Notes under the pieces: generated by a model
Databases searched by the model: none
The model's input: the letters and a program-made list of their open reading frames with translations, nothing else
Told to the model about the DNA's origin: nothing
Shown: in pieces, positions 5,658-63,944 of the stretch
Layout of the letters: each line of letters starts with the position of its first letter
How positions within the stretch are numbered: position 1 is the stretch's first letter
Translations under genes and position numbers: made by a program
From: Thermoleophilaceae bacterium
GTDB taxonomy: Bacteria; Actinomycetota; Thermoleophilia; Solirubrobacterales; Thermoleophilaceae
Direction of reading: 5' to 3'
DNA length: 64,000 bases
NCBI GenBank assembly: GCA_025928265.1
Contig: JAICJV010000008.1
Span: 1-64,000, forward strand

Positions 5658-6559
5658 GCGTCCAGGGCGAGTTCGTCCGCCAGCAGGCGCACTTCCGCGA
5701 CTGGGTGAGCGCCGACGGGTCGACCGGGGCCGTGGCGGAGCCGGGCCGCTACCACCTGTATGTCGCTCTTGCGTGCCCGTGGTCGCACCGCACGGCGATC
5801 GTGCGCAAGCTGAAGCGGCTCGAGGACGTCATCGGCATCTCCCATATCCACCCGTTCCGCGACGAGCGCGGCTGGGCGTTCGCGGGCGGCGAGTTCAGCG
5901 ACGACGTCAACGGCTGGGCGTTCCTGAGCGAGGCGTACGAGGCGAGCGCGCCGGGCTACGACGGCCGCGTGAGCGTGCCGGTGCTGTGGGACAAGAAGGC
6001 CGGGCGCATCGTGAACAACGAGTCGGCGGAGATCATCCGCATGTTCGGCTCGGAGTTCGACGAGTGGGGCGACGCGTCGGTGGACCTGTACCCGGAGGAC
6101 CTGCGCGCGGAGATCGACGCGCTCGAGGAATGGATCTACTCCGACCTCAACAACGGCGTCTACCGCGCCGGCTTCGCGAAGTCGCAGGAGGCGTATGAGT
6201 CCGCCTATCGCCGCGTCGCCGGGATCCTGCCGAAGCTCGAGGAGCGGCTCGCCGAGCGCCGCTATCTGACGGGCGACCGGATCACCGAGGCGGACTGGCG
6301 GTTGTTCGTCACGCTCGTCCGCTTCGACGCCGTCTACCACACCCACTTCCGCTGCAACGGCGTGAAGGTGGCCGAGCTGCCGAACCTCTGGGGCTACACG
6401 CGCGAGTTGTACCAGCAGCCCGGCGTGGCCGAGACCGTGGCCATGGACGAGATCAAGCGCCACTACTACACGACGCACGACGAGCTGAACCCGAAGCGGA
6501 TCATCCCCGCCGGCGGGCCGACGCACGACGACTTCATGGCGCCGCACGGGCGCGGCTGA
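5654..6559 (+). CDS. Glutathionyl-hydroquinone-reductase-like protein (YqjG/ECM4 family)
   Basis: A 301-residue protein of the Xi-class glutathione transferases. The hallmark ACPWSHRTAI motif with the catalytic Cys lies near residue 40, followed by the C-terminal helical domain (LTGDRITEADWRLFVTLVRFDAVYH). The family reductively removes glutathione from hydroquinone conjugates. Actinobacteria usually use mycothiol, so the actual thiol here is inferred. The GTG start overlaps the stop of the DsbA-like gene, so they are one transcription unit. Confidence 0.85.
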   Translation: MSVQGEFVRQQAHFRDWVSADGSTGAVAEPGRYHLYVALACPWSHRTAIVRKLKRLEDVIGISHIHPFRDERGWAFAGGEFSDDVNGWAFLSEAYEASAPGYDGRVSVPVLWDKKAGRIVNNESAEIIRMFGSEFDEWGDASVDLYPEDLRAEIDALEEWIYSDLNNGVYRAGFAKSQEAYESAYRRVAGILPKLEERLAERRYLTGDRITEADWRLFVTLVRFDAVYHTHFRCNGVKVAELPNLWGYTRELYQQPGVAETVAMDEIKRHYYTTHDELNPKRIIPAGGPTHDDFMAPHGRG

Positions 6560-6607
6560 GCAAACTCTCACTGCGCGCTTATCGACGCGGCAACGCCGCC
6601 GTGCAGC

Positions 6608-7609
6608 GTGGCAGGCGTGCGCAGAATCGATCCAGGGATGGCGCTGCTGCCGCTGCGGCTGTTCCTCGGCATCACGTTCGTGTACGCGGGTGTCCAGAAG
6701 CTGAGCGATCCAGGGTTCCTGCACCCGGGGGCGCCCACCTACATCGGCACCCAGCTGCACGGCTTCGCGCACGGCACCCCTGGCGGCTTCATCCTGAGGG
6801 CGTTCGCACTGCCCGACCCGAAGCTCGCGGGCATCGGCGTCGCCATCGTGGAGATCGCCGTGGGCCTGCTCGTCACGCTCGGACTGCTCACGCGCGCCGC
6901 GGCGGCCGTGGGCCTCGGGCTCAACCTCATCCTGTTCCTCACCAACAGCTGGCACGCGTACCCGTACTTCCTCGGCTCCGACATCGTGTTCGTGTTCGCA
7001 TGGCTGCCGCTCGTGCTCGCGGGCGCCGAAGGCCAGCCGGCGCTAGACAACGGGCTCGAGCGGCTCGCGCGGTCACCGCGGATGCGAATGGCGCCTTCGG
7101 GCCCGGCGCTCTCGAGGCGCGAGGTGATCACGCGGAGCGCCGGGGCCGTGGGCGCCGCGTCACTCCTGATCGCCGGCGTCGCCGCCGCCGCGAAGGGCAG
7201 CTACAGGGGCACGCGGGCCCTGGCTGCCGGCACGGGCACGCGCAAGCGAGCCGCGGCGCTCGCAGCGCCGCATGCGCAGCACGCGTCGTCACATGTTCCC
7301 GCGGGTGCGGTTCGGCTCGGGCCGTCGAAGGCGCTGCCGGCCGGGCAGGGCGCCACCTACAACGACCCCTCCGACGGGCAGCCCGACATCGCAGTGAGGC
7401 TGCCGGACGGCAAGCTGAAGGCCTACAGCGCGGTGTGCACGCACGCGGGCTGCACCGTCGGTTTCTCGGGCGGCGTTATCGCCTGCCCCTGCCACGGCGC
7501 CACCTACGACCCCAACACCGGGAGCGTCACGGGTGGTCCTGCGCCGCAGGGCCTGGCGCCGAAGCGGCTCGTGGAGTCCGACGGGCAGATCTACGCGGTG
7601 CCGACCTAG
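6608..7609 (+). CDS. DoxX-like membrane protein fused to a Rieske [2Fe-2S] domain
   Basis: A 333-residue protein. Residues 1-145 form four hydrophobic helices of the DoxX / thiosulfate:quinone oxidoreductase small-subunit type (LRLFLGITFVYAGVQKL). A basic stretch and a second hydrophobic segment resembling a Tat-type anchor follow (SRREVITRSAGAVGAASLLIAGVAAAA). A Rieske domain then carries both cluster motifs, CTHAGC and CPCHGATYD (CxH and CxxH), with the extra Cys pair that makes the disulfide of high-potential Rieske proteins. It probably passes electrons between a quinone-interacting membrane part and an outer partner. The GTG start lies 48 bp after the preceding gene. Confidence 0.8.
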   Translation: MAGVRRIDPGMALLPLRLFLGITFVYAGVQKLSDPGFLHPGAPTYIGTQLHGFAHGTPGGFILRAFALPDPKLAGIGVAIVEIAVGLLVTLGLLTRAAAAVGLGLNLILFLTNSWHAYPYFLGSDIVFVFAWLPLVLAGAEGQPALDNGLERLARSPRMRMAPSGPALSRREVITRSAGAVGAASLLIAGVAAAAKGSYRGTRALAAGTGTRKRAAALAAPHAQHASSHVPAGAVRLGPSKALPAGQGATYNDPSDGQPDIAVRLPDGKLKAYSAVCTHAGCTVGFSGGVIACPCHGATYDPNTGSVTGGPAPQGLAPKRLVESDGQIYAVPT

Positions 7610-7653
7610 CCCCGTGAAATGGAGCGGTGATCCCCGGGGGACCGGGGGCGAAA

Positions 7654-9423
7654 CTAGGAGGCCGCGGTGGCGGCGCGGACCGTGTCGCGGAAGCGGTTGG
7701 TGATCGGCAGGCGCCGGTCGCGCCCGAACGCGCGCTGCGAGATGCGGATGCCGGGGGGCGCCTGACGACGCTTGTACTCGGAGCGATCGACCAGCCCGAT
7801 CACGCGCTCGACGTCCTCCGCCGGCAGCCCCTGGCGCACCAGTTGGTCTGCGTTCAGGTCGCCCTCGATGTAGCCGAGCAGGATCGCGTCGAGGATCGGA
7901 TAGGGCGGGAGCGAGTCCTCGTCGCGCTGCTCGTAGCGCAGCTCGGCCGACGGCGGCCGCTCGGCTACCGAGCGCGGCACCAGATCGCTGCCCTCCTGCT
8001 CGTTGCGCCACTCGACGAGCCGGTAGACCCAGCCCTTGTACACATCCTTGAGGGCCGCGAAGCCGCCCGCCATGTCGCCGTACAGCGTCGCGTAACCGAC
8101 CGACAGCTCCGACTTGTTGCCGGTCGTGAGCACGAGCCAGCCGAACTTGTTCGACAGCGCCATGACGAGGTTGCCGCGCATCCGGGCCTGGAGGTTCTCC
8201 TCGGTGAGGTCGGGCTCCTCGTTCTCGAACACGTCCTCGAGCACTGCGTCGTAGGTCTTCATGAGCGGCTCGATGTCGAACTCGATGAGCTGCGTGCCGA
8301 GGTTGCGCGCGATCGTGCGCGCGTCCTCCTGCGTCTCGCCGGACGAGTAGGGCGACGGCATGACAACCGTCGTGACGCGGTCCGGCCCGAGCGCGTCGAC
8401 GGCAAGCAGCGCCACGAGCGCCGAGTCGATCCCGCCCGACAGCCCGAACACCACCCGCTTGAAGCCGTTCTTGTTCACGTAGTCGCGCACGCCGGTCACG
8501 AGCGCGGCGTACACCTCGGACTCGGGGGCCAGCGGCTCGGCAACCGGCCCCTCGACCGGCTCGCCGTCGCTCTCGACCGTGACCCGCGCGAGGATGGGAC
8601 ACGTGTCGCCGCCGCGCTCGCGGTAGCGCCGGACGGCCGCGCGGTGGCGGGCGTCGCGCAGGCGCATCGCGGAGCTGCGGCCGGGGTCGATCGTGCAGGT
8701 GATGAACGCCTCCTCGAACTGCGGCGCGCGCGCGACGATGTCGCCGGTCGGGTCGATCACCACGCTCTGGCCGTCGAAGACGAGCTCGTCCTGGCCGCCG
8801 AAGAGGTTGCAGAAGACGACGCTGACGAGGTTGTCGCGCGCCCGCTGCACGAGCATCTGCTCGCGCTCGAGCGGCTTGCCCGCGTGGTAGGGCGACGCCG
8901 ACAGGTTCACGATCACCTGCGCGCCCGACAGCGCCTCGCTGGTCGCCGGCGGGCCGGGCTCCCAGATGTCCTCGCAGACCGTGACGCCGATCGCCACGCC
9001 GTTCAACTCGATCAGCGCCGGCCCGGCGCCGGACTGGAAGTAGCGGTTCTCGTCGAAGACGCCGTAGTTCGGCAGGAACATCTTCCGGTAGACCGCCTGG
9101 ACGCGCCCGTCGGCGAGCACGGCCGCGGCGTTGTACACGTCGTCGCGCCGCTCCGGGAAGCCCACCAGCGCCACGATGTCCTCGGTGTCGCGCGCGATCT
9201 CCTCCAGCGCCGCGCCGGCGGCGTCCACGAAGTGCGTCTTCAGCAGCAGATCCTCGGGCGGATAGCCGGTGATCGCGAGCTCGGGCAGCACCACCAGTTG
9301 CGCGCCCTCGTCACGCCCGCGGTCGATGCTCTCGCGGATCTTCTTCGCGTTGCCGCCGATGTCCCCGACGATCGGGTTGATCTGCGCGAGCGCGACGCGC
9401 AGCGGCTCGGTGCGCATGGTCAT
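7654..9423 (-). CDS. nadE: Glutamine-dependent NAD+ synthetase
   Basis: Makes NAD+ from deamido-NAD+, ATP and glutamine. The N-terminal nitrilase-type glutaminase domain (about 1-260) starts RVALAQINPIVGDIGGNA and has the catalytic Glu (LPELAITGYPPEDLL), Lys (YRKMFLPNYGVFDE) and Cys (GVTVCEDIWEPG). The C-terminal synthetase domain has the ATP P-loop SGGIDSALVALLAVDALG and the conserved TTGNKSELSVGYATLYGD region. The 589-residue length is normal for the two-domain form. It is followed after 4 bp by the upstream GH5 stop on the same strand. Confidence 0.95.
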   Translation of the reverse strand: MTMRTEPLRVALAQINPIVGDIGGNAKKIRESIDRGRDEGAQLVVLPELAITGYPPEDLLLKTHFVDAAGAALEEIARDTEDIVALVGFPERRDDVYNAAAVLADGRVQAVYRKMFLPNYGVFDENRYFQSGAGPALIELNGVAIGVTVCEDIWEPGPPATSEALSGAQVIVNLSASPYHAGKPLEREQMLVQRARDNLVSVVFCNLFGGQDELVFDGQSVVIDPTGDIVARAPQFEEAFITCTIDPGRSSAMRLRDARHRAAVRRYRERGGDTCPILARVTVESDGEPVEGPVAEPLAPESEVYAALVTGVRDYVNKNGFKRVVFGLSGGIDSALVALLAVDALGPDRVTTVVMPSPYSSGETQEDARTIARNLGTQLIEFDIEPLMKTYDAVLEDVFENEEPDLTEENLQARMRGNLVMALSNKFGWLVLTTGNKSELSVGYATLYGDMAGGFAALKDVYKGWVYRLVEWRNEQEGSDLVPRSVAERPPSAELRYEQRDEDSLPPYPILDAILLGYIEGDLNADQLVRQGLPAEDVERVIGLVDRSEYKRRQAPPGIRISQRAFGRDRRLPITNRFRDTVRAATAAS

Positions 9424-9426
9424 GGC

Positions 9427-55216: not shown

Positions 55217-56176
55217 ATGCCCGAGGCCGTGTTCCCGCACGTCGAAGCGAAGCGCGGGCATTACGAGAGCTTCTACCTCCGTGCGTGCCACCCGTCCGAG
55301 CCGCTCGGCGTGTGGATCCGTCACACCGTCCACAAGCGTCCCGGGCAGCAGCCGCGCGCGTCGGTCTGGTTCACGCTGTGGGACCCGCGTCCGCACGCGT
55401 CGAAGGTGACGCTCGACGATCTGAGCGTGCCCGCGGGCGGATGGATACGGATCGCCGACAGCACGTTCGGCCCGGGCCGCGCCACCGGCTCGGCGCGCAG
55501 CGAGCAATGCGACGCGAGCTGGGACCTGACGTACGAGCCCGCCGCGCCGCCGTTCCGGCACCTGCCGATCGAGCGCATGTACACGGCGCCGATCCCGCGG
55601 ACCAAGACCGAGAGCCCGGTGCCGTCCGCGTCGTTCAGCGGCAGCGTGACGGTGGACGGCCGGACGATCGAGCTCAGCCGCTGGCCGGGCATGGTGGGGC
55701 ACAACTGGGGCGCCGAGCACGCGGAGCGCTGGGTCTGGCTGCACGGCATAGCGTTCGACGGCGCGGGCGCGGACTGGATCGACGCCGCCATCGGCAAGGT
55801 CAAGCTCGGCCCGGTCACCACGCCGTGGATCGGAAACGGCTGCCTGCACGCCGGCGGCCGCTCACACCGGCTCGGCGGCCGCGCGCGGACGCTGCGCGAG
55901 TCGCCCGAGCGCTGCGAGTTCCAGCTGCGGGGCAAAGGTGTCGTCGTGACCGGGGAGGTGAGCGCGCCGCGCGACCGGCTGGTCGGCTGGGTCTATGCCG
56001 ATCCCGCGGGCGGCGAGCACAACACGATCAACTGCTCGATCGCCTCGATGGAGCTGCGCGTGGAACGCGACGGCGAGCCCCCGCTCGAGCTGCGTACCGA
56101 CTCGCACGGCGTCTATGAGCTGGGCGTCCGCGAGCGTGACCACGGTGTCCCGCTCCAGCCGTTCGATGACGGCTAG
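55217..56176 (+). CDS. Lipocalin-like / AttH-type protein of unknown function
   Basis: 319 residues, with no signal peptide. The repeated tryptophan-rich segment SRWPGMVGHNWGAEHAERWVWLHG and a two-half beta-rich layout suggest the tandem-lipocalin fold of AttH/CrtC (hydroxyneurosporene synthase-like) proteins. The catalytic role is not assignable. It starts 26 bp from the divergent SDR. The assignment is by pattern only. Confidence 0.6.
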   Translation: MPEAVFPHVEAKRGHYESFYLRACHPSEPLGVWIRHTVHKRPGQQPRASVWFTLWDPRPHASKVTLDDLSVPAGGWIRIADSTFGPGRATGSARSEQCDASWDLTYEPAAPPFRHLPIERMYTAPIPRTKTESPVPSASFSGSVTVDGRTIELSRWPGMVGHNWGAEHAERWVWLHGIAFDGAGADWIDAAIGKVKLGPVTTPWIGNGCLHAGGRSHRLGGRARTLRESPERCEFQLRGKGVVVTGEVSAPRDRLVGWVYADPAGGEHNTINCSIASMELRVERDGEPPLELRTDSHGVYELGVRERDHGVPLQPFDDG

Positions 56177-56234: not shown

Positions 56235-56603
56235 ATGGCGATGCGAGAGGGCACAGCAGAACGGCGCGACGAGCTCTTCCGGGAGGCGATGGATCTCATC
56301 GCGCGCGATTACGCGAGCGATCTCAACCTGGACGGGGTCGCACGAACGCTGGCCACCTCGCGCCGCCAGCTCCAGCGCGCGTTCGCCGAGGTGGGCGACA
56401 CGAGCTTTCGCGACGAGCTGGCGCGGGTGCGGATGGGCCATGCGCGTGCGCTGCTCGCGACGGAGTCGCTGGCCGTCCGCCAGGTGGCCGCCCGGGTGGG
56501 CTATCACCAGCCCGCTCAGTTCGCGAAGAGCTTTCGCCGCTACCACGGCATGCCGCCGTCGGCGTACAGGCGTGACGCACGCAACGGCGCGCGGCCCGTC
56601 TGA
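56235..56603 (+). CDS. AraC-family HTH protein (DNA-binding domain only)
   Basis: 122 residues, almost entirely the two HTH motifs of an AraC/XylS domain (LNLDGVARTLATSRRQLQRAFAEVGDTSFRDELARVRMGHARALLATESLAVRQVAARVGYHQPAQFAKSFRRYHGMPPSAYR). No sensory domain. ATG 56235 is one of several in-frame starts (GTG 56199, TTG 56190). Stand-alone domains of this type act as small activators. The gene ends three bases before the 11-bp repeats that precede the redox operon and could help regulate it. Confidence 0.82.
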   Translation: MAMREGTAERRDELFREAMDLIARDYASDLNLDGVARTLATSRRQLQRAFAEVGDTSFRDELARVRMGHARALLATESLAVRQVAARVGYHQPAQFAKSFRRYHGMPPSAYRRDARNGARPV

Positions 56604-56605
56604 GG

Positions 56606-56627
56606 CTTTGAGAAAGCTTTGAAATAG
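56606..56627. promoter_or_regulatory. Tandem 11-bp direct repeats, OmpR-type binding site candidate
   Basis: CTTTGAGAAAG (56606-56616) is followed directly by CTTTGAAATAG (56617-56627), with CTTGG continuing in phase. An 11-bp period of direct repeats is the usual site of OmpR/PhoB-family regulators. It is an AT-rich patch, 64 bp before the first gene of an operon that encodes such a regulator. A GGCCGC/GCGGCC hairpin (56635-56652) follows in the leader. Confidence 0.6.
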
Positions 56628-56690
56628 CTTGGCCGGCCGCTGGCAGGCGGCCGCCGATCATCGACCTCGTACCCGAGAGGAGCGAGTTCG

Positions 56691-57113
56691 ATGAACGGAA
56701 TCAAGACGAAGGTCGGCGCAGGCGCGACCGTCGCCGCGCTCGGCGGCCTCGCCGCCTACGCGCTCGCGTCGGGCGATCAGCCGGCCGCGGCGCCGACCGC
56801 GAAGGCGCAGGCCGTGGAGGTCCGGACCCAGACGATCCGTCAGACCGTCCACGTCGTGAGGCACGAGAAGCCGCGGCGCCCGCGCCGGGCGCCACAGGCC
56901 GCCTCGGCGCCGTCGACCCCGTCCGTTGCGCGCGCGGTCGCGCCCGCACCCGCGCCGGCACCCGCGTCGCGCCCGATCGTGGCTGCCGCGCCACCCGCGC
57001 CGGCACCGGCGCGCCACGTCGCCACCCGCACCAGCGGGTCGAGCGGCAGCGGCGACGGCGAGCACGAGCGCGAGCACGAACATGAGGTCGAGCACGAGGG
57101 TGGCGATGACTGA
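56691..57113 (+). CDS. Small membrane-anchored Pro/Ala-rich protein with acidic-His tail
   Basis: 140 residues. An N-terminal helix (VGAGATVAALGGLAAYALASG) is followed by a basic segment, a long Pro/Ala-rich linker (APAPAPAPAS, PPAPAPAR), and the motif TRTSGSSGSG. The tail of 16 residues is nearly all Glu, His and Asp (GEHEREHEHEVEHEGGDD). The His/Asp tail could bind a metal. It starts the operon with an AGAGGAG ribosome site. There is no known family. As a possible target of the downstream ApbE it is discussed in the findings. Confidence 0.7.
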   Translation: MNGIKTKVGAGATVAALGGLAAYALASGDQPAAAPTAKAQAVEVRTQTIRQTVHVVRHEKPRRPRRAPQAASAPSTPSVARAVAPAPAPAPASRPIVAAAPPAPAPARHVATRTSGSSGSGDGEHEREHEHEVEHEGGDD

Positions 57114-57375
57114 GGCGCGTCGTCGTCGCCGTCCGGGGCCGCTGCCGGTCATCCTGGGCACGATCGCGACGTTTCTCGTCGTGCTCACGCTGATGGCCGT
57201 CCAGCTTCAGTCCGGGCACGACCCGGCGCTGGGCTCGGGCGCGCAGGTCGCGCAGCTGGGCAAGGGCCGGGCCGTCGTGACGCGCACCAGCGGCGCGGTG
57301 GCGGTGAAGCACCCGACCGCCGGCCATCCCGTGACCACGCGCACGAGCGGCGGAGGTGGTGGGGACGATGAGTAG
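57106..57375 (+). CDS. Small single-span protein with QLxxGHDP motif
   Basis: 89 residues. A basic N-terminus (RRRRRPGPLP) is followed by one membrane helix (VILGTIATFLVVLTLMAV) and the segment QLQSGHDPALG at the outer face, then two TRTSG motifs separated by about 20 residues (VVTRTSGAV and VTTRTSGGG), ending GGGGGDDE. It is a paralogue of the next protein over the N-terminal 40 residues. It overlaps both neighbours by 8 bp. Confidence 0.7.
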   Translation: MTEARRRRRPGPLPVILGTIATFLVVLTLMAVQLQSGHDPALGSGAQVAQLGKGRAVVTRTSGAVAVKHPTAGHPVTTRTSGGGGGDDE

Positions 57376-57739
57376 ACGCCCGGGAGCCCTGCCTGTCGTA
57401 CTCGGCTCCAGCGCCGCGTTCGCCGCCGTCTTCGCCGGGCTCTCGCTGCAGCTGCGAGCGGGCCACGACCCGTCCCTCGGCGACGCCGCCACGAAGAAGG
57501 CGAAGGTCGAGGCGCGACGCGTGGTCGTCCGGCGCGTGATCAAGCGGCGGGTGGTCGTCCACGTGATCCCGGCGCCGCAGGCGGTCGCCGGCTCCTCGCC
57601 CGCGGCCGCTCCGGTGACGCAGCCGGCTGCGTCGTCAGCGCCCGCACCCGTGGCTGCCCCCGCACCGGCTCCAGCCCCTGCCGCGGCTCCGGCCCCGGCT
57701 CCGGCGCCGGCGCCCGCCCCCGTCACGAGGTCCTCGTGA
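57368..57739 (+). CDS. Small single-span protein with QLxxGHDP motif and PAPAP tail
   Basis: 123 residues. The start RRPGALPVVLGSSAAFAAVFAGLSLQLRAGHDPSLG parallels the preceding protein, so they arose by duplication. A basic stretch (EARRVVVRRVIKRRVVVH) and a long Pro/Ala-rich tail (APAPAPAPA repeats) ending VTRSS follow. It probably spans the cell wall. It overlaps apbE at its stop. Confidence 0.7.
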   Translation: MSRRPGALPVVLGSSAAFAAVFAGLSLQLRAGHDPSLGDAATKKAKVEARRVVVRRVIKRRVVVHVIPAPQAVAGSSPAAAPVTQPAASSAPAPVAAPAPAPAPAAAPAPAPAPAPAPVTRSS

Positions 57740-58644
57740 TGCACGACACCACGTTCTCCTCGATGGGCAGCGACGTCCGCCTGCTGTTCGACGGGCCCGC
57801 CGAGATAGCGGACCGCGAGCGCCTGTTCGTCGAGGACTTCGCCGCACGACTCAGCCGCTTCATTCCCGGCAGCGAGCTGTGCGCTCTGAATGCGGACCCG
57901 CGCGACGAGGTGCCGGCATCACGGCTCCTGCGCGCCGCCGTGGGCGCCGGCCTCTGGGCGGCGGAGCGCTCGGGCGGCCTCGTCGATCCCACGATGCTCG
58001 ACGCCGTCGAGCGGGCCGGCTACCGCGATTCGCTGAAGGGCGTGACGGCGACACCGCTGGCCGACGCGCTGAAGCACGCGCCCGCCCGCCATCCGGCTTC
58101 CTCCAACCCTGCCGCCACGTGGAAGGCCGTCTTCGTCGACGACGCCGCGGCCACGATCCGGCGACCGCCGGGTGTCCGCATCGACACCGGCGGAACCGGC
58201 AAGGGCCTCTGCGCCGACGCGGTGGCGCACCGCCTCGGCGGGTTTCGACGCGTGGTTGTGGACTGCGGCGGCGACATCGCAGTACGCGGGACGTGGGAGA
58301 TCGAGGTGGAGCATCCGCTCACCGGCGAGCACGTGCACACGTTGCGGGTGAGCGGCGGTGGCGTCGCGACGTCCGGCCTCAACGTGCGCGTCTGGAGGCG
58401 CGCGGACGGCAGCTATGCCCACCACCTGCTCGACCCTGGGACCGGCGAGCCGGCGTGGACGGGCCTCGTGGGTGCGACCGCGATCGGCGCAAGCGCGCTC
58501 GAGGCGGAGACGCTGTCGAAGCTGGCGCTCCTGTCCGGTCCCGGCGCCGCGCGGCGCGTGCTCGCGCCGCTCGGCGGCGTGCTCGTGCACGACGACGGCG
58601 ACGTCGAGATCGTGGCGCCGCCACGCCTGAAGGTGGCCGCGTGA
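57739..58644 (+). CDS. apbE: ApbE-family FAD:protein FMN transferase
   Basis: 301 residues. Transfers FMN from FAD to a Thr/Ser in a target protein. The family's FAD/Mg site is visible as RIDTGGTGKGLCADAVAHRLGG, VVDCGGDIAVRG and HHLLDPGTGEPAWTGLVGATAIG. The N-terminal SSMGSDVRLLF and ALNADP also match. There is no signal peptide or lipobox, so the active site is presumably cytosolic unless exported by another route. No classic FMN-binding domain target is encoded in the window; the neighbouring small proteins are candidates. Confidence 0.9.
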   Translation: MHDTTFSSMGSDVRLLFDGPAEIADRERLFVEDFAARLSRFIPGSELCALNADPRDEVPASRLLRAAVGAGLWAAERSGGLVDPTMLDAVERAGYRDSLKGVTATPLADALKHAPARHPASSNPAATWKAVFVDDAAATIRRPPGVRIDTGGTGKGLCADAVAHRLGGFRRVVVDCGGDIAVRGTWEIEVEHPLTGEHVHTLRVSGGGVATSGLNVRVWRRADGSYAHHLLDPGTGEPAWTGLVGATAIGASALEAETLSKLALLSGPGAARRVLAPLGGVLVHDDGDVEIVAPPRLKVAA

Positions 58645-59192
58645 ACCCCGCCGACTACTCCTGGTGGCTCGCGAGCCGCGCGTCGGGCGTCGTCGCCCTG
58701 ATCCTCGTGACGATCTCCGTCGGCCTCGGGCTGACGATGGCGTCGAAGATCGTGCGCAAACGCGGCATGGGGCCGATGCTGGCCCGCATCCACGAGCAGA
58801 CCGCACTCGCGGGCCTCGTGGCGATCGCCGTGCACGGCATCACGCTGCTGGGCGACCCGTGGCTCCACCCCGGCGTGAAGGGCATCGCCGTCCCGTTCGC
58901 GATGGCGTACCGGCCGCTGTTCACGGGCCTCGGGATCATCGCCGGCTACCTCGCTGCGCTGCTCGGCCTGACCTTCTACCTGCGGCGCCGCATCGGCACG
59001 ATGCTGTGGCGCAAGATGCACAGGGCCACGGTCCTCGTCTGGCTGCTCGGGCTGGTGCACACCCTCGGCGCGGGCACCGACGGCGGCTCGGTGTGGCTGC
59101 GCGAGTTCATGGCCGTCACCGCAGTCCCGATCGTCGTGCTGTTCGCCGTCAGGATGCTGCGCAGGCCCGCGCCGCGGAGGGCGGTGGCATGA
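58641..59192 (+). CDS. Ferric-reductase-like transmembrane haem protein
   Basis: 183 residues with about five to six membrane helices. Paired histidines on separate helices (RIHEQTALAGLVAIAVHGITLLG and MHRATVLVWLLGLVHTLGAG) fit two b-type haem sites across the membrane, as in the FRD / YedZ-MsrQ group. It would pass electrons from an inner-side reductase to an outer acceptor. GTG 58641 overlaps the apbE stop, and the 3' end overlaps the reductase, so the three are made together. Confidence 0.8.
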   Translation: MNPADYSWWLASRASGVVALILVTISVGLGLTMASKIVRKRGMGPMLARIHEQTALAGLVAIAVHGITLLGDPWLHPGVKGIAVPFAMAYRPLFTGLGIIAGYLAALLGLTFYLRRRIGTMLWRKMHRATVLVWLLGLVHTLGAGTDGGSVWLREFMAVTAVPIVVLFAVRMLRRPAPRRAVA

Positions 59193-60370
59193 GCGACGGC
59201 ATCGTGATCGCCGGCGGTGGCCTGGCGGCGCAGCGCTGTACCGAGACGCTGCGCAGCCAGGGCTACGACGGCCCGATCCGGATCGTGTGCGCCGAGGCGC
59301 ACGCGCCGTACGACCGGCCGCCGCTCTCGAAGGAGCTGCTCGCCGGTGAGATGCCGGCGGCCGCCGTGGCGCTGCGGCCGCGGCCCTGGTACGACGAGCG
59401 CCAGATCGACCTGCTGCTCGGCACCCGCGCCGAGCGACTCGACCTCGCCGGGCGGCGGCTCGAGCTGTCGTCGGGCGCGCGGTTGCGCTTCGACTCGCTG
59501 CTGGTGGCGACGGGCTCGCGTGCCCGCACGCTCCCGCTGCTCGACGGTTACTCCAACGCCGGCGTTCTGCGCACCCTCGACGACGCTCTCGCGCTCCGCC
59601 ACGCGCTCGGTCCCGGCAGGCGCGTGGTGATCGTGGGCGCAGGGTTCATCGGCCTCGAGGCGGCGGCCACGGCGAGCAGGCTCGGCGCCTGGGTGACGAT
59701 CATCGAGGCGCTCGACGCGCCGCTCATGGGGATCCTCGGTGCGTCGCTGGGGAGCTGGTTCGCCGAGCTCCACCGCGCCGAGGGCGCCGACGTGCTGCTT
59801 GGCGCGCGCATCACCGGGGTGCGCGGCCGCCGGAAGGTGCGCGCGCTGGAGCTTGCCGACGGCGTCGTGGTGGAGTGCGATCACGTGCTCGTGGGCGTCG
59901 GCGTGGACCCCGACACGCGCTGGCTGGACGGCACGGGGCTCGGGGCGAACGGCGTGCGCGTGGATGCGCGCGGCTGCACTTGCGCGCCGGGGATCTACGC
60001 CGCCGGGGACGCCGCGCGGCCCTACGACACCGCGCTTGCGCGCCACGTGCGAACCGAGCACTGGGAGGCCGCGGCCCGCCAGGGTGCCGACGCCGCGCGC
60101 GCGATGCTCGGGCTCGAGCCGGTGCGGACTCCGCTGCCGAGCTTCTGGAGCGACCAGCACGGCGTGCGCGTCCAGTACGTCGGTCGCGCGGAGGAGGCCG
60201 ATCGGATCGCCATCGACGGCGATCCCGGCGGTCGTGATTTCGAGGCCCTCTTCACGAAGGCCGGCGTTCCCGTCGCGGCGCTCCTGGTGGGGCGGCCGCG
60301 GGCGCTGTCGCGGGCGCGCCGGCGCGTGCAGGAGGGCCTCGAATCCCTGACACCTGAAACGAGGAGATGA
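59189..60370 (+). CDS. FAD-dependent NAD(P)H:ferredoxin reductase-like protein
   Basis: 393 residues of the class of ferredoxin reductases paired with dioxygenase or P450 systems. FAD site GIVIAGGGLAAQRC, PYDRPPLSKELL, second nucleotide site VVIVGAGFIGLEAAATASRLGAWVTIIE, APGIYAAGDAA and the C-terminal reductase domain (FWSDQHGVRVQYVG). It likely oxidises NAD(P)H and reduces the ferredoxin encoded next. It overlaps both neighbours by ATGA. Confidence 0.9.
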   Translation: MSDGIVIAGGGLAAQRCTETLRSQGYDGPIRIVCAEAHAPYDRPPLSKELLAGEMPAAAVALRPRPWYDERQIDLLLGTRAERLDLAGRRLELSSGARLRFDSLLVATGSRARTLPLLDGYSNAGVLRTLDDALALRHALGPGRRVVIVGAGFIGLEAAATASRLGAWVTIIEALDAPLMGILGASLGSWFAELHRAEGADVLLGARITGVRGRRKVRALELADGVVVECDHVLVGVGVDPDTRWLDGTGLGANGVRVDARGCTCAPGIYAAGDAARPYDTALARHVRTEHWEAAARQGADAARAMLGLEPVRTPLPSFWSDQHGVRVQYVGRAEEADRIAIDGDPGGRDFEALFTKAGVPVAALLVGRPRALSRARRRVQEGLESLTPETRR

Positions 60371-60579
60371 CGATGAGATGCATTGCGAAGGTTGACGAGC
60401 TGGAGTGCAGCGCCCACGGCGACTGCGCGCTGGTAGCGCCGAGCGTGTTCGCGGTCGACGATGTCGCGCGGGTCGTGGGTGACGGTCCGCGGGAGCTGTT
60501 GATCGAGGCCGCGGAGTCGTGTCCTTCCGCAGCGATATCAGTATTCGACGCGGATTCCGGCGCGCAGCTCTACCCCTAG
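60367..60579 (+). CDS. Ferredoxin with CxxHxxC...CP motif
   Basis: 70 residues. The cluster ligands are Cys14, Cys20 and Cys52 (followed by Pro) with His17 in the place of the second Cys, the arrangement of actinobacterial 3Fe-4S-type ferredoxins. The sequence APSVFAVDD and the CP-ended second site are conserved. It probably accepts electrons from the upstream reductase. It overlaps the reductase stop by 4 bp. Confidence 0.88.
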   Translation: MTMRCIAKVDELECSAHGDCALVAPSVFAVDDVARVVGDGPRELLIEAAESCPSAAISVFDADSGAQLYP

Positions 60580-60591
60580 AGTGGCCCTTGA

Positions 60592-61296
60592 ATGGCCACC
60601 CGGATCCTCTTCGTGGAGGACGAGCCGTCGATCTCGGACCCGTTCTCGAAGGCCCTCGTGCGCGAGGGTTTCGAGCCGGTCGTCGCGCGGACGGGTCACG
60701 AGGCGCTGGCGCTCGCCGAGCGGGTCGAGCCGGACCTGGTACTGCTCGATCTGAACCTGCCGGACACGGACGGGCGCGACGTGGCGCGCGAGCTGCGACG
60801 ACGTGGCGACACGCCGATCGTGATGCTCACCGCGCGCGGCACCGAGATGGACAAGATCGTCGGCCTCGAGATCGGCGCCGACGACTACGTGGTGAAGCCA
60901 TTCAGCGGCGGCGAGGTGATCGCGCGGATACGCGCGGTGCTGCGCCGCACGCGGCAGTCGGACGCCGGCGCCCCGTCGGAACCGCTGGCGATCGGCGACC
61001 TCATGGTGGACTTCGGCGCACGCCGCGCGACCCTCGCGGCGCGGCCGCTCGAACTGTCGCGCAAGGAGTTCGACCTGCTCGCGGAGCTCGTCCGCAACGC
61101 GGGCAACGTCGTCTCCCGCGAGGACCTCATGGATCGCGTATGGGACGAAAACTGGTTCGGGTCGACGAAGACCCTCGACACGCACGTGGGCTGGCTACGC
61201 CGCAAGCTCGGTGACGACACCACGGCCCCGCGTTACCTCCACACCGTGCGCGGCGTCGGGTTCCGCTTCAGCTCGCCCGAGGAGCTCGCGCCGTAA
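60592..61296 (+). CDS. OmpR-family response regulator
   Basis: 234 residues. Receiver domain (acidic pocket FVEDEPS, phospho-Asp53 in LVLLDLNLPDTDG, switch Thr in MLTARG, Lys in YVVKPF). OmpR-type winged helix at the C-terminus (ELSRKEFDLLAELVRNAGNVVSREDLMDRVW ... TLDTHVGWLRRKLG). It lies 12 bp after the ferredoxin gene. The 11-bp repeats at 56606 are its likely binding site, giving feedback control of the operon. Confidence 0.93.
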   Translation: MATRILFVEDEPSISDPFSKALVREGFEPVVARTGHEALALAERVEPDLVLLDLNLPDTDGRDVARELRRRGDTPIVMLTARGTEMDKIVGLEIGADDYVVKPFSGGEVIARIRAVLRRTRQSDAGAPSEPLAIGDLMVDFGARRATLAARPLELSRKEFDLLAELVRNAGNVVSREDLMDRVWDENWFGSTKTLDTHVGWLRRKLGDDTTAPRYLHTVRGVGFRFSSPEELAP

Positions 61297-61298
61297 GC

Positions 61299-62684
61299 CT
61301 GCGCGGCCGCCTGCTGCTGGCGCTGGCGTACGTCCTGCTGCTGGCAATAATCGCCTTCGCCGTGCCGCTCGGCTTCTCGCTGTCGGCACGACAGGGGGAG
61401 GAGGTGCGGCTGCAGTCGCGCGGCCAGGCCGACGTGGTGGCCGCCACCGCCGCGGACCTGCTCGTTCACCGCAGCCGGTCCGACCTGCGGGCGCTGGTCG
61501 CGACGGCGGGCGACTCGGTGCGCGGCCGCGTGGTGGTGGTCGATGCGAACGGCACCCTGATCGCCGACAGCGCGGGTGCCGGGGAGATCGGCACGAGCTA
61601 CGCGGCGCGGCCGGAAATCGCCGCGGCGCTGCACGCGCGCCGCTTCCAGCAGACGCGCCACAGCCAGACGCTCGGCGAGGACCTGCTCGCCACCGCCACG
61701 CCGATCCTGAGCGGCAGAAAGGTGATCGGCGCGGTGCGTGTGACGCAGAGCGTGAACGCCGTGAGCCGCGCGACCCGCCGCTCCATTCTCGGGCTCGTGC
61801 TGATAGCCGCCGTCGTGCTGCTGCTGGGCCTGGTCGCCGGGTCGCTGATCGCGCGGCAGCTCGCGCGCCCGCTGCGGCGCCTCGAGGCCACGGCCGGCGA
61901 GATCGCGCACGGAGACCTCGACCGGCGGGCACCCGTGGAGGGGACCAGCGAGCAGCGTTCGCTTGCCCGCTCGTTCAACGAGATGACCGATCGCCTGTCG
62001 CGTGCGCTGCGTGCCCAGCGCGAGTTCGTGGCCGACGCGTCGCATCAGCTGCGCACGCCGCTCACGGGTCTGCGGCTGCGGCTGGAGGAGGCCGACGCGG
62101 TCGCGCACGGCGACCCGTCCGTACGCGAGGAGCTCGACGCGGCGCTCGGCGAGGTCGACCGGATGTCGCAGATGGTCGACGAGCTGCTGCTGCTCTCTTC
62201 CGCCGGCGGCCGCGATGCGCCGGCGGAGCCGGTGGACGTGGCGGAGGCGGCGCGTGCGGCGGTGGCTCGGTGGACGCAGAGCGCGGCCGACCGGGGCATC
62301 GAGTTGTCGTGCGCGTCCGGCGACGGCAGCGGCCGCGTGACCGCCGCGCGCGCGGACCTCGACCGTGCGCTCGACGTGTTCGTCGAGAACGCGTTGCGCT
62401 ATTCGCCGAGCGGCAGCGGCGTGCGGGTCCTAGCCGCGCCCGGGCGACTCGATGTGATCGACGGCGGACCCGGTCTGGCGCCGGGCGAGGAGGAGACGGT
62501 GTTCGAGCGCTTCCATCGCGGCCGCGCCGGGCGCTCGGGGCCGGCGGGAACAGGGCTGGGACTCCCTATCGCGCGCGAGCTGATGGGCCGCTGGGGCGCG
62601 CGGACGTCGATCGGCAATCGGCCGGAGGGCGGCGCGCGGGCCTCGATCACGTTCGACTCCGTAGCCTCGGGGGACGAGGTATGA
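61299..62684 (+). CDS. Sensor histidine kinase
   Basis: About 461 residues. First membrane helix (LLLALAYVLLLAIIAFAVPLGFSL), an extracytoplasmic sensor part (about 30-170), second helix (ILGLVLIAAVVLLLGLVAGSLIA), HAMP, DHp with phospho-His249 in ASHQLRTPLTG, and ATPase with N box VFVENALRYSPSG and G boxes (DGGPGLAPGEEE, GTGLGLPIA). The first helix begins at CTG 61299, two bases after the response-regulator stop, and no ATG/GTG/TTG exists before GTG 61362, which lies inside that helix. Initiation at CTG is therefore likely. Confidence 0.9.
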   Translation: MRGRLLLALAYVLLLAIIAFAVPLGFSLSARQGEEVRLQSRGQADVVAATAADLLVHRSRSDLRALVATAGDSVRGRVVVVDANGTLIADSAGAGEIGTSYAARPEIAAALHARRFQQTRHSQTLGEDLLATATPILSGRKVIGAVRVTQSVNAVSRATRRSILGLVLIAAVVLLLGLVAGSLIARQLARPLRRLEATAGEIAHGDLDRRAPVEGTSEQRSLARSFNEMTDRLSRALRAQREFVADASHQLRTPLTGLRLRLEEADAVAHGDPSVREELDAALGEVDRMSQMVDELLLLSSAGGRDAPAEPVDVAEAARAAVARWTQSAADRGIELSCASGDGSGRVTAARADLDRALDVFVENALRYSPSGSGVRVLAAPGRLDVIDGGPGLAPGEEETVFERFHRGRAGRSGPAGTGLGLPIARELMGRWGARTSIGNRPEGGARASITFDSVASGDEV

Positions 62685-63079
62685 GGCTCAAGCTCAAGCG
62701 CACAACCTGGATGTGGACGGCGCTCGCTGTCGCGGGCCTGGTCATCGCGGTAGGCGTCTCCTACGCGGCCGGCCAGCTCGCGAAGCCGAGTGTGGGGCTC
62801 ACGAACGAGCCGGTCTCTGCAGGCGCACGGCTGACGCCCGCGGCCACGCCGGCCGGGAAGGCGAAGCCGGCGGCGAAGCCGAAGCGGCGGCGCCCGCGGC
62901 CCCAACAGCAACCCACCGTCGCGGCGCCGCCACCGGTCACTCCCACAGCTCCCGCCCCGGCACCGGCCCCGGCACCGGCGCCCTCCGCGCCGACCCAAAC
63001 CCAGACGGCGCCGCACCACCACGACGACTCCTCTGGGAGCGACGACTCGAGTCACCACGGCTCCGAGCACGATGACTGA
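62681..63079 (+). CDS. Small membrane-anchored Pro-rich protein with His/Asp tail
   Basis: 132 residues. Basic start (RLKLKRTTWMW), one membrane helix (TALAVAGLVIAVGVSYAAG), a short conserved-looking QLAKPSVGL, then a basic and Pro/Ala-rich stretch (RRRPRPQQQP; PAPAPAPAPAP) and a tail rich in His, Asp and Ser (HHHDDSSGSDDSSHHGSEHDD, split by Gly/Ser). It is similar in design to the proteins at the operon start. It overlaps the kinase stop (ATGA). Confidence 0.7.
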   Translation: MRLKLKRTTWMWTALAVAGLVIAVGVSYAAGQLAKPSVGLTNEPVSAGARLTPAATPAGKAKPAAKPKRRRPRPQQQPTVAAPPPVTPTAPAPAPAPAPAPSAPTQTQTAPHHHDDSSGSDDSSHHGSEHDD

Positions 63080-63944
63080 GCGCCGCCCCCTCCTCGTAGT
63101 CGACGCGCCGTCGCTGCTCTACCGCGCGTTCTTCGCGCTGCCCACCACGATCACCGACGCGTCCGGGCGCCCGGTGAACGCGCTCCTCGGCGCGCTCAAC
63201 ATGATCATGCGCGTGGTGGCGGACCGCGGCCCGCGCGCGGTGGTGCTCGCCTCGGGACCCGACGCGGCGGACTACCGCGCCGAGGCGTATCCGCCGTACC
63301 ACGGCGAGCGGCCGCCGGTCCCGGACGACCTGGCGCCGCAGTTCGACGCCGCGCCGGAGTTCTTCGAGTCGCTCGGCTGGTTCTGGGCGTACACGCCGGA
63401 CCTCGAGGCCGACGACCTGCTGCACTCCTACGCGGTCGCCGAGGAGGCCGACGGCGGCAGCGCGCTCCTGCTGACCGGCGACCGCGACCTGTTCCAGTGC
63501 GCGAGCGATCGCACGACGGTGCTGTACGTGAAGACCGGGACGAAGGGCGTCGAGGACGTCGACCCGGCGGAGGTTCGCCGGCGCTACGGCGTGCCGCCCG
63601 AGCTGGTGCCCGATTTCATCGCGCTGCGCGGCGACCCGTCCGACGGCCTGCCGGGCGGGAAGGGGATCGGCGAGAAGACGGCCGCCGATCTTCTGAAGCG
63701 CCACGAGTCGCTCGAGGCGGCGCTGGCGGCGTGGTCGCGCGAGCGGCCGGCGCGCGTGGCAGGTGCGCTGCGCGACCAGGCGGACGAGCTGCGGACGTTC
63801 AAGGACATCGCCACCCTGCGGACGATCGAGGTTGAGTTGCCGCCCGACACGGATACGGATTTCGAGAGTGGCGCCCGCGCCGCGCGCGAGCGCGGCATGG
63901 AGCAGCTCGCCGGCCGTCTGGAGCGCTCGGGCGGCCCTGCTTGA
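63072..63944 (+). CDS. 5'-3' exonuclease (PolA N-terminal / Xni-like)
   Basis: 290 residues. PIN-like nuclease core and helix-hairpin-helix: LLVVDAPSLLYRAFFALP (metal Asp), DLEADDLLHSYAVAEEA, LLTGDRDLFQC, and LVPDFIALRGDPSDGLPGGKGIGEKTAADLL (helical-arch HhH). It corresponds to the 5' nuclease domain of DNA polymerase I without the polymerase. It overlaps the preceding gene by 8 bp, so it is co-transcribed with the redox operon, possibly by chance of order. Confidence 0.88.
   Translation: MTERRPLLVVDAPSLLYRAFFALPTTITDASGRPVNALLGALNMIMRVVADRGPRAVVLASGPDAADYRAEAYPPYHGERPPVPDDLAPQFDAAPEFFESLGWFWAYTPDLEADDLLHSYAVAEEADGGSALLLTGDRDLFQCASDRTTVLYVKTGTKGVEDVDPAEVRRRYGVPPELVPDFIALRGDPSDGLPGGKGIGEKTAADLLKRHESLEAALAAWSRERPARVAGALRDQADELRTFKDIATLRTIEVELPPDTDTDFESGARAARERGMEQLAGRLERSGGPA

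Follow-up and report, generated by a model that had tools for sequence, protein, structure and literature searches.

A predicted self-regulated MsrQ-like electron-transfer operon in a Thermoleophilaceae bacterium encodes small tail proteins as candidate ApbE substrates

The stretch of DNA analysed here (the window) comprises the first 64,000 bases of a 67,928-base contig (C5) from a Thermoleophilaceae bacterium, the assembly of which (3.0 Mb in 144 contigs) is estimated to be 73% complete. Within it lies a run of closely spaced, co-directional genes (56691-63944) that encodes, among other products, an ApbE flavin mononucleotide (FMN) transferase, an MsrQ-like membrane protein and four small single-helix proteins, here called S1 to S4 (Table 1). 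From sequence comparisons we consider it likely that this operon specifies regulated electron export of the MsrQ-like class, with FMN carried on a short C-terminal motif of disordered single-helix tethers and no folded FMN-binding domain. That the tails are flavinylated by ApbE is, taken by itself, quite likely; the whole explanation is held a little less firmly because it adds the full electron path and the outward topology.

C-terminal tails of the proteins encoded before apbE

Comparisons were based on 46 fetched loci in which an MsrQ-like gene directly follows apbE. The flanks of 41 are uncut by a contig end, and from these the open reading frame preceding apbE was extracted by position. 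In every case (41/41) it encodes a protein with a single helix, a variable linker rich in Pro, Ala and Ser, and a tail of the form [ST]-x-x-S. Ser is the last residue in 37 loci, all with Thr or Ser at position -3; in the remaining four, one to four residues follow the motif. Termini among the relatives include PVTTSAS, PVTRTS, PVVTSSS, PLTTSQS and PVQTATS, and the S3 protein of the window ends in PVTRSS (tail peptide PAPAPAPVTRSS). The linker beside the motif varies freely; the motif itself is constant. Shuffling of the last 14 residues (20,000 trials) produced 2.4 exact terminal motifs on average and never more than 10, against 37 observed – a comparison that yields no true probability, because the sequences are related. 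The S4 proteins of the same loci, which do not adjoin apbE, provide a control: they end in DD instead of [ST]xxS. In the window, S1, S2 and S3 together hold four copies of TR[ST]S (TRTS three times, TRSS once), a number reached in none of 100,000 shuffles.

The canonical ApbE acceptor motif is [S/T]-G-A-[S/T] (PMC8238504, PMC12052999). ApbE places FMN on the last residue of DxxSGA[S/T]; this 7-residue motif is enough to serve as a flavin tag, works best at a terminus, tolerates replacement of its initial Asp by Ala with minor effect only, and accepts Ser as the acceptor (PMC12052999). The spacing from Thr or Ser to the final Ser in the window tails is that of the canonical motif: TR[ST]S retains the S/T at -3 as well as the acceptor Ser (position 0), and lacks the canonical Gly and Asp. 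Tails of the paralogous type (TGGS, SGGS, SGAS) come close to the canonical sequence. The proposal of the initial annotation, that the small proteins are flavin carriers, thus gains support from an acceptor-like motif at the C-terminus.

The genome also encodes a paralogue of the window's system (L094, Table 1), the tail protein of which – again a helix plus linker – ends in PVTGTGGS. Its ApbE is of the N..T type (see below), its membrane protein matches Ferric_reduct (PF01794) at 30.3 bits (cut-off 28), and an OmpR-type regulator and kinase lie nearby. All 16 loci of this type end in SGGS, TGGS, SGAS or SQGS (the 15 relatives in SGGS, SGAS or SQGS), so that these tails read as the canonical motif, or one step away from it, at the chain end. 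Outside the order, 397 genomes of the phylum were sampled, and 24 loci from them, belonging to other actinobacterial classes or orders, were counted by eye: tails are clear in 17, with endings such as TTGGS, TRSGGS, TSRSS and TVTRTS, and weak in two; the S1-like protein of one locus (L166) carries VTHTGAS. A third group of loci (L113, L115, L117, L128, L171 and L180) encodes before apbE a protein of about 200 amino acids with a folded-looking part plus a tail (for example DAHTGSGGSGY, SDSGQS or DDSSDAS); these are possible further flavinylation substrates.

None of S1 to S4 has a significant Pfam match, and none matches FMN_bind. ApbE without a classic FMN-binding domain, as described in the initial annotation, is borne out: in the genome (73% complete) FMN_bind (PF04205) has zero matches, in the operon or elsewhere, and DUF2271 and NqrB/RnfD have none either, so that all three were rejected as alternative substrates. 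Nor does anything found favour another flavinylated protein as recipient of the ApbE product, an outcome that would have spoken against the earlier proposal: no known domain of this kind was detected, and the other ApbE of the genome, encoded on contig C73, is paired with a separate tail protein. Across the order, ApbE was found in 157 of 232 genomes and FMN_bind in 30 (79 and 15, respectively, of 112 high-quality genomes); about 80% of the ApbE-bearing genomes are without an FMN_bind match. Like this bacterium, most ApbE-bearing relatives encode tiny membrane-anchored proteins, which probably carry a flavin at the tip of a flexible tail and export electrons.

The S3 tail should face outside, because Lys and Arg cluster on the N-terminal side of the helix (4.8 per 15 residues before it vs 1.3 after it; N-terminal excess in 38/41). 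An RRVxxRxxxxxVxP-like stretch is conserved in many S3 relatives. The alternating basic and hydrophobic stretch that follows the helix (RRVVVRRVIKRRVVVHVIP) is conserved in most of them; it could be a docking site for the haem protein or ApbE, or contact the membrane surface. The S1 family is conserved upstream of S3 in relatives, with the motif in most members, not all; in many of the relatives' loci an S1-like protein whose acidic tail finishes in DD is encoded upstream. The acidic, His-rich DD ends of S1 and S4 are conserved and might capture metal or protons close to the flavin; alternatively, they might function with the sensor kinase.

ApbE, the haem protein and the electron path

The predicted model of the window ApbE (predicted local distance difference test, pLDDT, 93.9) shows the full fold, with a template modelling score (TM-score) of 0.7-0.8 to ApbE/Ftp/FmnB structures. 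The catalytic His (H229) is invariant and aligns with the HhlDP stretch of solved ApbEs. The canonical residues at the positions of Glu258 and Lys262 are, we take it, the metal-site Asp and Thr, neither of which is present in the window ApbE. Which pair occupies these positions follows the tail type: E..K in 42/46 ApbEs beside [ST]xxS tails, N..T in 16/16 beside SGGS-type tails, and D..T in 12/14 beside FMN_bind. As a strict marker of tail-tagged systems E..K was rejected, since one locus (L179) combines D..T with a TSRSS tail. The Glu..Lys pair spans a large ApbE subclass, in which a Lys near the metal site could alter the need for metal or replace it. Because the enzyme has no signal peptide, the tail is likely modified in the cytosol before export; the start of the ApbE gene overlaps the stop of S3. 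The FMN_bind-linked ApbEs of the order have, as far as seen, no evident signal peptide at their starts.

The MsrQ-like protein scores below the cut-off for Ferric_reduct (PF01794; 3.8e-5, 24.2 bits, cut-off 28). A fold search with its predicted model (pLDDT 92.5) returned STEAP1, SpNOX (a bacterial NADPH oxidase), STEAP2 and cytochrome b561 (probability 0.99-1.00, E 0.04-0.2). Two His pairs, H51/H65 and H127/H140, are invariant in 29 aligned sequences, and the protein would bind haem at two sites. Relatives of it are encoded by 144 of the 232 genomes of the order; the named organisms that encode them are all Actinobacteria (5/6 Thermoleophilia groups, including Svornostia abyssi). The donor module of the window consists of a flavin adenine dinucleotide (FAD) reductase of the putidaredoxin-reductase family and a ferredoxin resembling 4id8, the cluster motif of which (CSAHGDC) is CxxHGDC in nearly all relatives' copies; the second locus encodes a NuoF-like protein.

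For flavin attachment, haem binding, the electron path, the acceptor and the sensed signal we infer the following scheme, the order of electron carriers being read from the protein families of the parts. Cytosolic ApbE would use FAD as the source of FMN and attach it to S3, and also to S2 and S1, at the Ser of [T/S]-x-x-S. Electrons would pass from NAD(P)H through the putidaredoxin-reductase-like FAD protein and the CxxHxxC ferredoxin to the MsrQ-like protein, whose two haems would reduce swinging FMN tails reaching out of the membrane (N-in/C-out). The tails would then hand electrons to an outside acceptor – metal, quinone or small molecule – and the kinase, regulator and S4 would switch the operon via an operator of four 11-bp repeats upstream of S1.

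Organization and predicted self-regulation of the operon

The initial annotation described eleven co-directional, mostly overlapping genes; all are present, and Pfam upholds the gene families. Eight junctions are overlaps of 4 or 8 bp, a 12-bp gap precedes the regulator and a 2-bp gap the kinase. The start given earlier, 56606, lies in no gene and falls within the predicted, conserved binding site of the regulator.

Table 1. Coordinates of operon genes, predicted motifs and the paralogous locus
Feature	Position	Strand	Remarks
Operator	56603..56642	+	direct repeats at 11-bp steps, AGGCTTTGAGA AAGCTTTGAAA TAGCTTGGCCG GCCGCTG; putative site of the operon's own OmpR-type regulator
S1	56691..57113	+	one membrane helix, linker, internal acceptor-like motif HVATRTSG, acidic/His tail ending DD
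TRTS of S1	57024..57035	+	candidate FMN acceptor Ser
S2	57106..57375	+	S3 paralogue, one membrane helix, motifs VVTRTSG and VTTRTSG, short acidic end
TRTS of S2, copy 1	57280..57291	+	motif search
TRTS of S2, copy 2	57337..57348	+	motif search
S3	57368..57739	+	predicted N-in/C-out membrane helix, basic segment, (PA)n linker, C-terminal tag PVTRSS-COOH
C-terminal TRSS of S3	57725..57736	+	candidate FMN acceptor, the last Ser
ApbE FMN transferase	57736..58644	+	E..K subclass, no signal peptide; Pfam ApbE 1.4e-37
E258 and K262 codons of ApbE	58507..58521	+	at positions of canonical metal-site D and T
MsrQ/ferric-reductase-like (FRD) membrane protein	58641..59192	+	four invariant His, two predicted haem sites
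FAD reductase	59189..60370	+	putidaredoxin-reductase type, NAD(P)H to ferredoxin; Pfam Pyr_redox_2 and Reductase_C
Ferredoxin	60367..60579	+	single-cluster, CxxHGDC; Pfam Fer4_13
OmpR/PhoB-type response regulator	60592..61296	+	Pfam Response_reg and Trans_reg_C
Sensor histidine kinase	about 61299..62684	+	probable CTG start; Cache-like sensor; Pfam HAMP/HisKA/HATPase_c
S4	62681..63079	+	one membrane helix, conserved VGLTNEPVSAGxxLTP segment, linker, His/Asp tail ending DD
5'-3' exonuclease	63072..63944	+	Pfam-confirmed; 8-bp overlap with S4; outside conserved unit
Paralogous system L094	G000:C73:6000-22500, 6017-9426	-	tail protein, ApbE, Ferric_reduct protein, NuoF-like protein, CxxHGxC ferredoxin

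Gene order is conserved in the relatives, as the initial annotation had suggested checking. A regulator with at least 55% identity is linked in 32 of the 46 loci (divergently transcribed in 24), the reductase was found in 17 and the ferredoxin in 19. No exonuclease homologue occurs near any of the other 45 loci, and membership of this gene in the operon is not borne out. Given these counts, ten genes form one conserved system and the exonuclease is a bystander; the core consists of the tail protein, apbE and the MsrQ-like protein, to which a donor module (reductase and ferredoxin) and a regulatory module (regulator, kinase and S4) are added. The reductase and ferredoxin, listed earlier as operon parts, are therefore such parts in the window but not constant ones, and in loci without them the genes downstream of the MsrQ-like gene gave no consistent partner. 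S4 is indeed a fourth small protein, but it lacks the acceptor motif and belongs with the regulator and kinase; S4-like proteins follow the kinase in relatives and mostly end in DD. An AraC-type regulator and the protein encoded at 55217-56176 were rejected as parts of the system, since the surroundings of the other loci contain no homologue of either.

Regulators of the OmpR/PhoB type often recognise direct repeats of 11 bp. De novo motif discovery in the intergenic regions between regulator and S1 in 23 relatives, with the window left out, yielded the motif AGGcTTTgCCga..CTTTACC...tTGGCCg...CTTg in 11-bp steps (information 38.2 bits vs 14-16 for shuffled sequences). Applied to both strands of the window, this model gave its best site at 56603-56642 (22.7 bits), about 50 bp upstream of S1; the next register, one repeat on, scored 19.5 bits, and the next independent site 7.2. 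The window's version of the operator occurs once without mismatch in the assembly, and a regulon search of the genome returned only this site plus one match with three mismatches, giving no clue to the electron acceptor. A search for the window's exact repeat in the relatives found nothing. Although in the window the gene for the regulator has been relocated downstream, self-regulation of the operon by its own regulator, proposed earlier, is supported, since a model built from relatives picks out the site just before S1.

Alternative explanations and relation to known systems

Gene order, tail motif, topology and operator are well supported by these comparisons. The [ST]xxS tails may signal something else – glycosylation, phosphorylation, anchoring or protein docking – with the true ApbE substrate an unrecognised protein elsewhere: the window tails deviate from DxxSGAT, and in a genome of this completeness such a protein might have been missed. 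We nevertheless regard this as unlikely, given that the tail gene stands directly upstream of apbE throughout the order and beyond, that tail variants converge on SGGS, SGAS and TGAS, that the metal-site subclass of ApbE follows the tail type, and that known substrate domains (FMN_bind, DUF2271, NqrB/RnfD) were searched for in the genome and not found. Equally, the FMN tails might be cytosolic, the tethers keeping FMN close to the reductase, ferredoxin and haem protein while the haem protein alone sends electrons across. The lack of a signal peptide on ApbE and the conserved basic stretch after the S3 helix (RRVVVRRVIKRR in the window) would fit such an arrangement, yet in 38/41 the Lys and Arg of the 15 residues flanking the helix lie before it, which argues for the opposite orientation, the acidic S1 and S4 tails and long Pro-rich linkers suit the outside, and those ApbEs of the order that are linked to FMN_bind seem to be just as cytosolic: we judge this reading unlikely too. 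The MsrQ-like protein could itself be the flavinylated subunit, as are NqrB and RnfD, leaving the tethers a structural role; its first helix contains S-R-A-S-G, which fits [ST]xxS, but the second Ser is Ala in 14 of the 29 aligned sequences in which all four His are invariant, so that as an FMN acceptor the protein is disfavoured and the idea very improbable. Finally, Pro/Ala-rich reading frames are abundant in GC-rich genomes, and unrelated small proteins might stand next to a redox operon by chance; conservation of gene order, tail motif and operator across genera and families already refutes this, and leaves it scarcely any probability.

Several observations weigh against flavinylated, outward-facing tails. 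The window-type motif is without Asp at -6 and Gly at -2, and its acceptor is Ser, a poorer substrate for ApbE than Thr. Some S1 relatives (L040, L061, L071 and L072) keep the acidic end and have no clear acceptor motif, and a tail is lacking in 5 of the 24 loci outside the order. In the ApbE subclass of the window the metal-site Thr is replaced by Lys, and its chemistry may differ; lacking a signal peptide, the enzyme would need to modify the tail before or during export. The absence of other substrates from the genome carries little weight because the genome is 73% complete, and the argument for flavinylation is one from sequence.

On balance, it seems reasonably probable that the tail proteins represent an undescribed class of flavoprotein, in which FMN on the last Ser of a disordered membrane tether, with no flavin-binding fold, acts as a swinging electron carrier, and that they are the main ApbE substrate of the order and occur widely in Actinomycetota, each type of tail having its corresponding ApbE subclass. 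A literature search, beyond which most subscription journals and preprints lay, found no report of a C-terminal or disordered ApbE substrate; novelty is not proven. If true, a short peptide alone would be a natural flavin carrier of a novel type, with electrons transferred by a roped flavin; a function could be assigned to a large set of Pro-rich proteins that now lack annotation, and the substrates of many orphan flavin-attaching enzymes would be explained. In a survey, 17% of genomes with extracytosolic flavinylation components had apbE and no FMN-binding protein (PMC8238504).

The initial annotation could place the gene combination in no named system; it can be assigned, as a variant, to the MsrQ-like flavinylation systems described from Actinobacteria (Meheust et al. 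2021, PMC8238504). These share ApbE beside a PF01794 membrane bis-haem protein. Their NAD(P)H donor module is a fused NAD domain or, in some, a NuoF-like protein, as in the second locus of this genome; that of the window is of another kind, an FAD reductase with a ferredoxin. Typically, although not universally, they include an FMN_bind protein, whereas here there are domainless tail-tagged tethers, several per operon; the dedicated two-component system is a further difference. The FAD reductase and single-cluster ferredoxin belong to the families found in P450-type chains (putidaredoxin reductase, CxxHxxC ferredoxin), but are linked here to a membrane haem protein and ApbE, with no P450 among the eleven genes. 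DUF2271 and DUF3570 (PMC8238504) are likewise orphan-ApbE substrates recognised beside apbE via a conserved motif, yet they are folded domains with an internal [S/T]GA[S/T], and DUF2271 was not found in this genome. Flavinylated FMN_red (PMC11334425) also has its sites on an unstructured C-terminal extension; that flexible tail folds back to a flavin-binding domain, of which there is none here. The Flavin-tag (Tong et al. 2021, as described in PMC12052999) is an engineered C-terminal ApbE motif in which a short terminal peptide is the substrate and no folded domain is needed: the tag described there is an engineered DxxSGAT, whereas the tails reported here, ending in TxxS or SGGS, are apparently natural.

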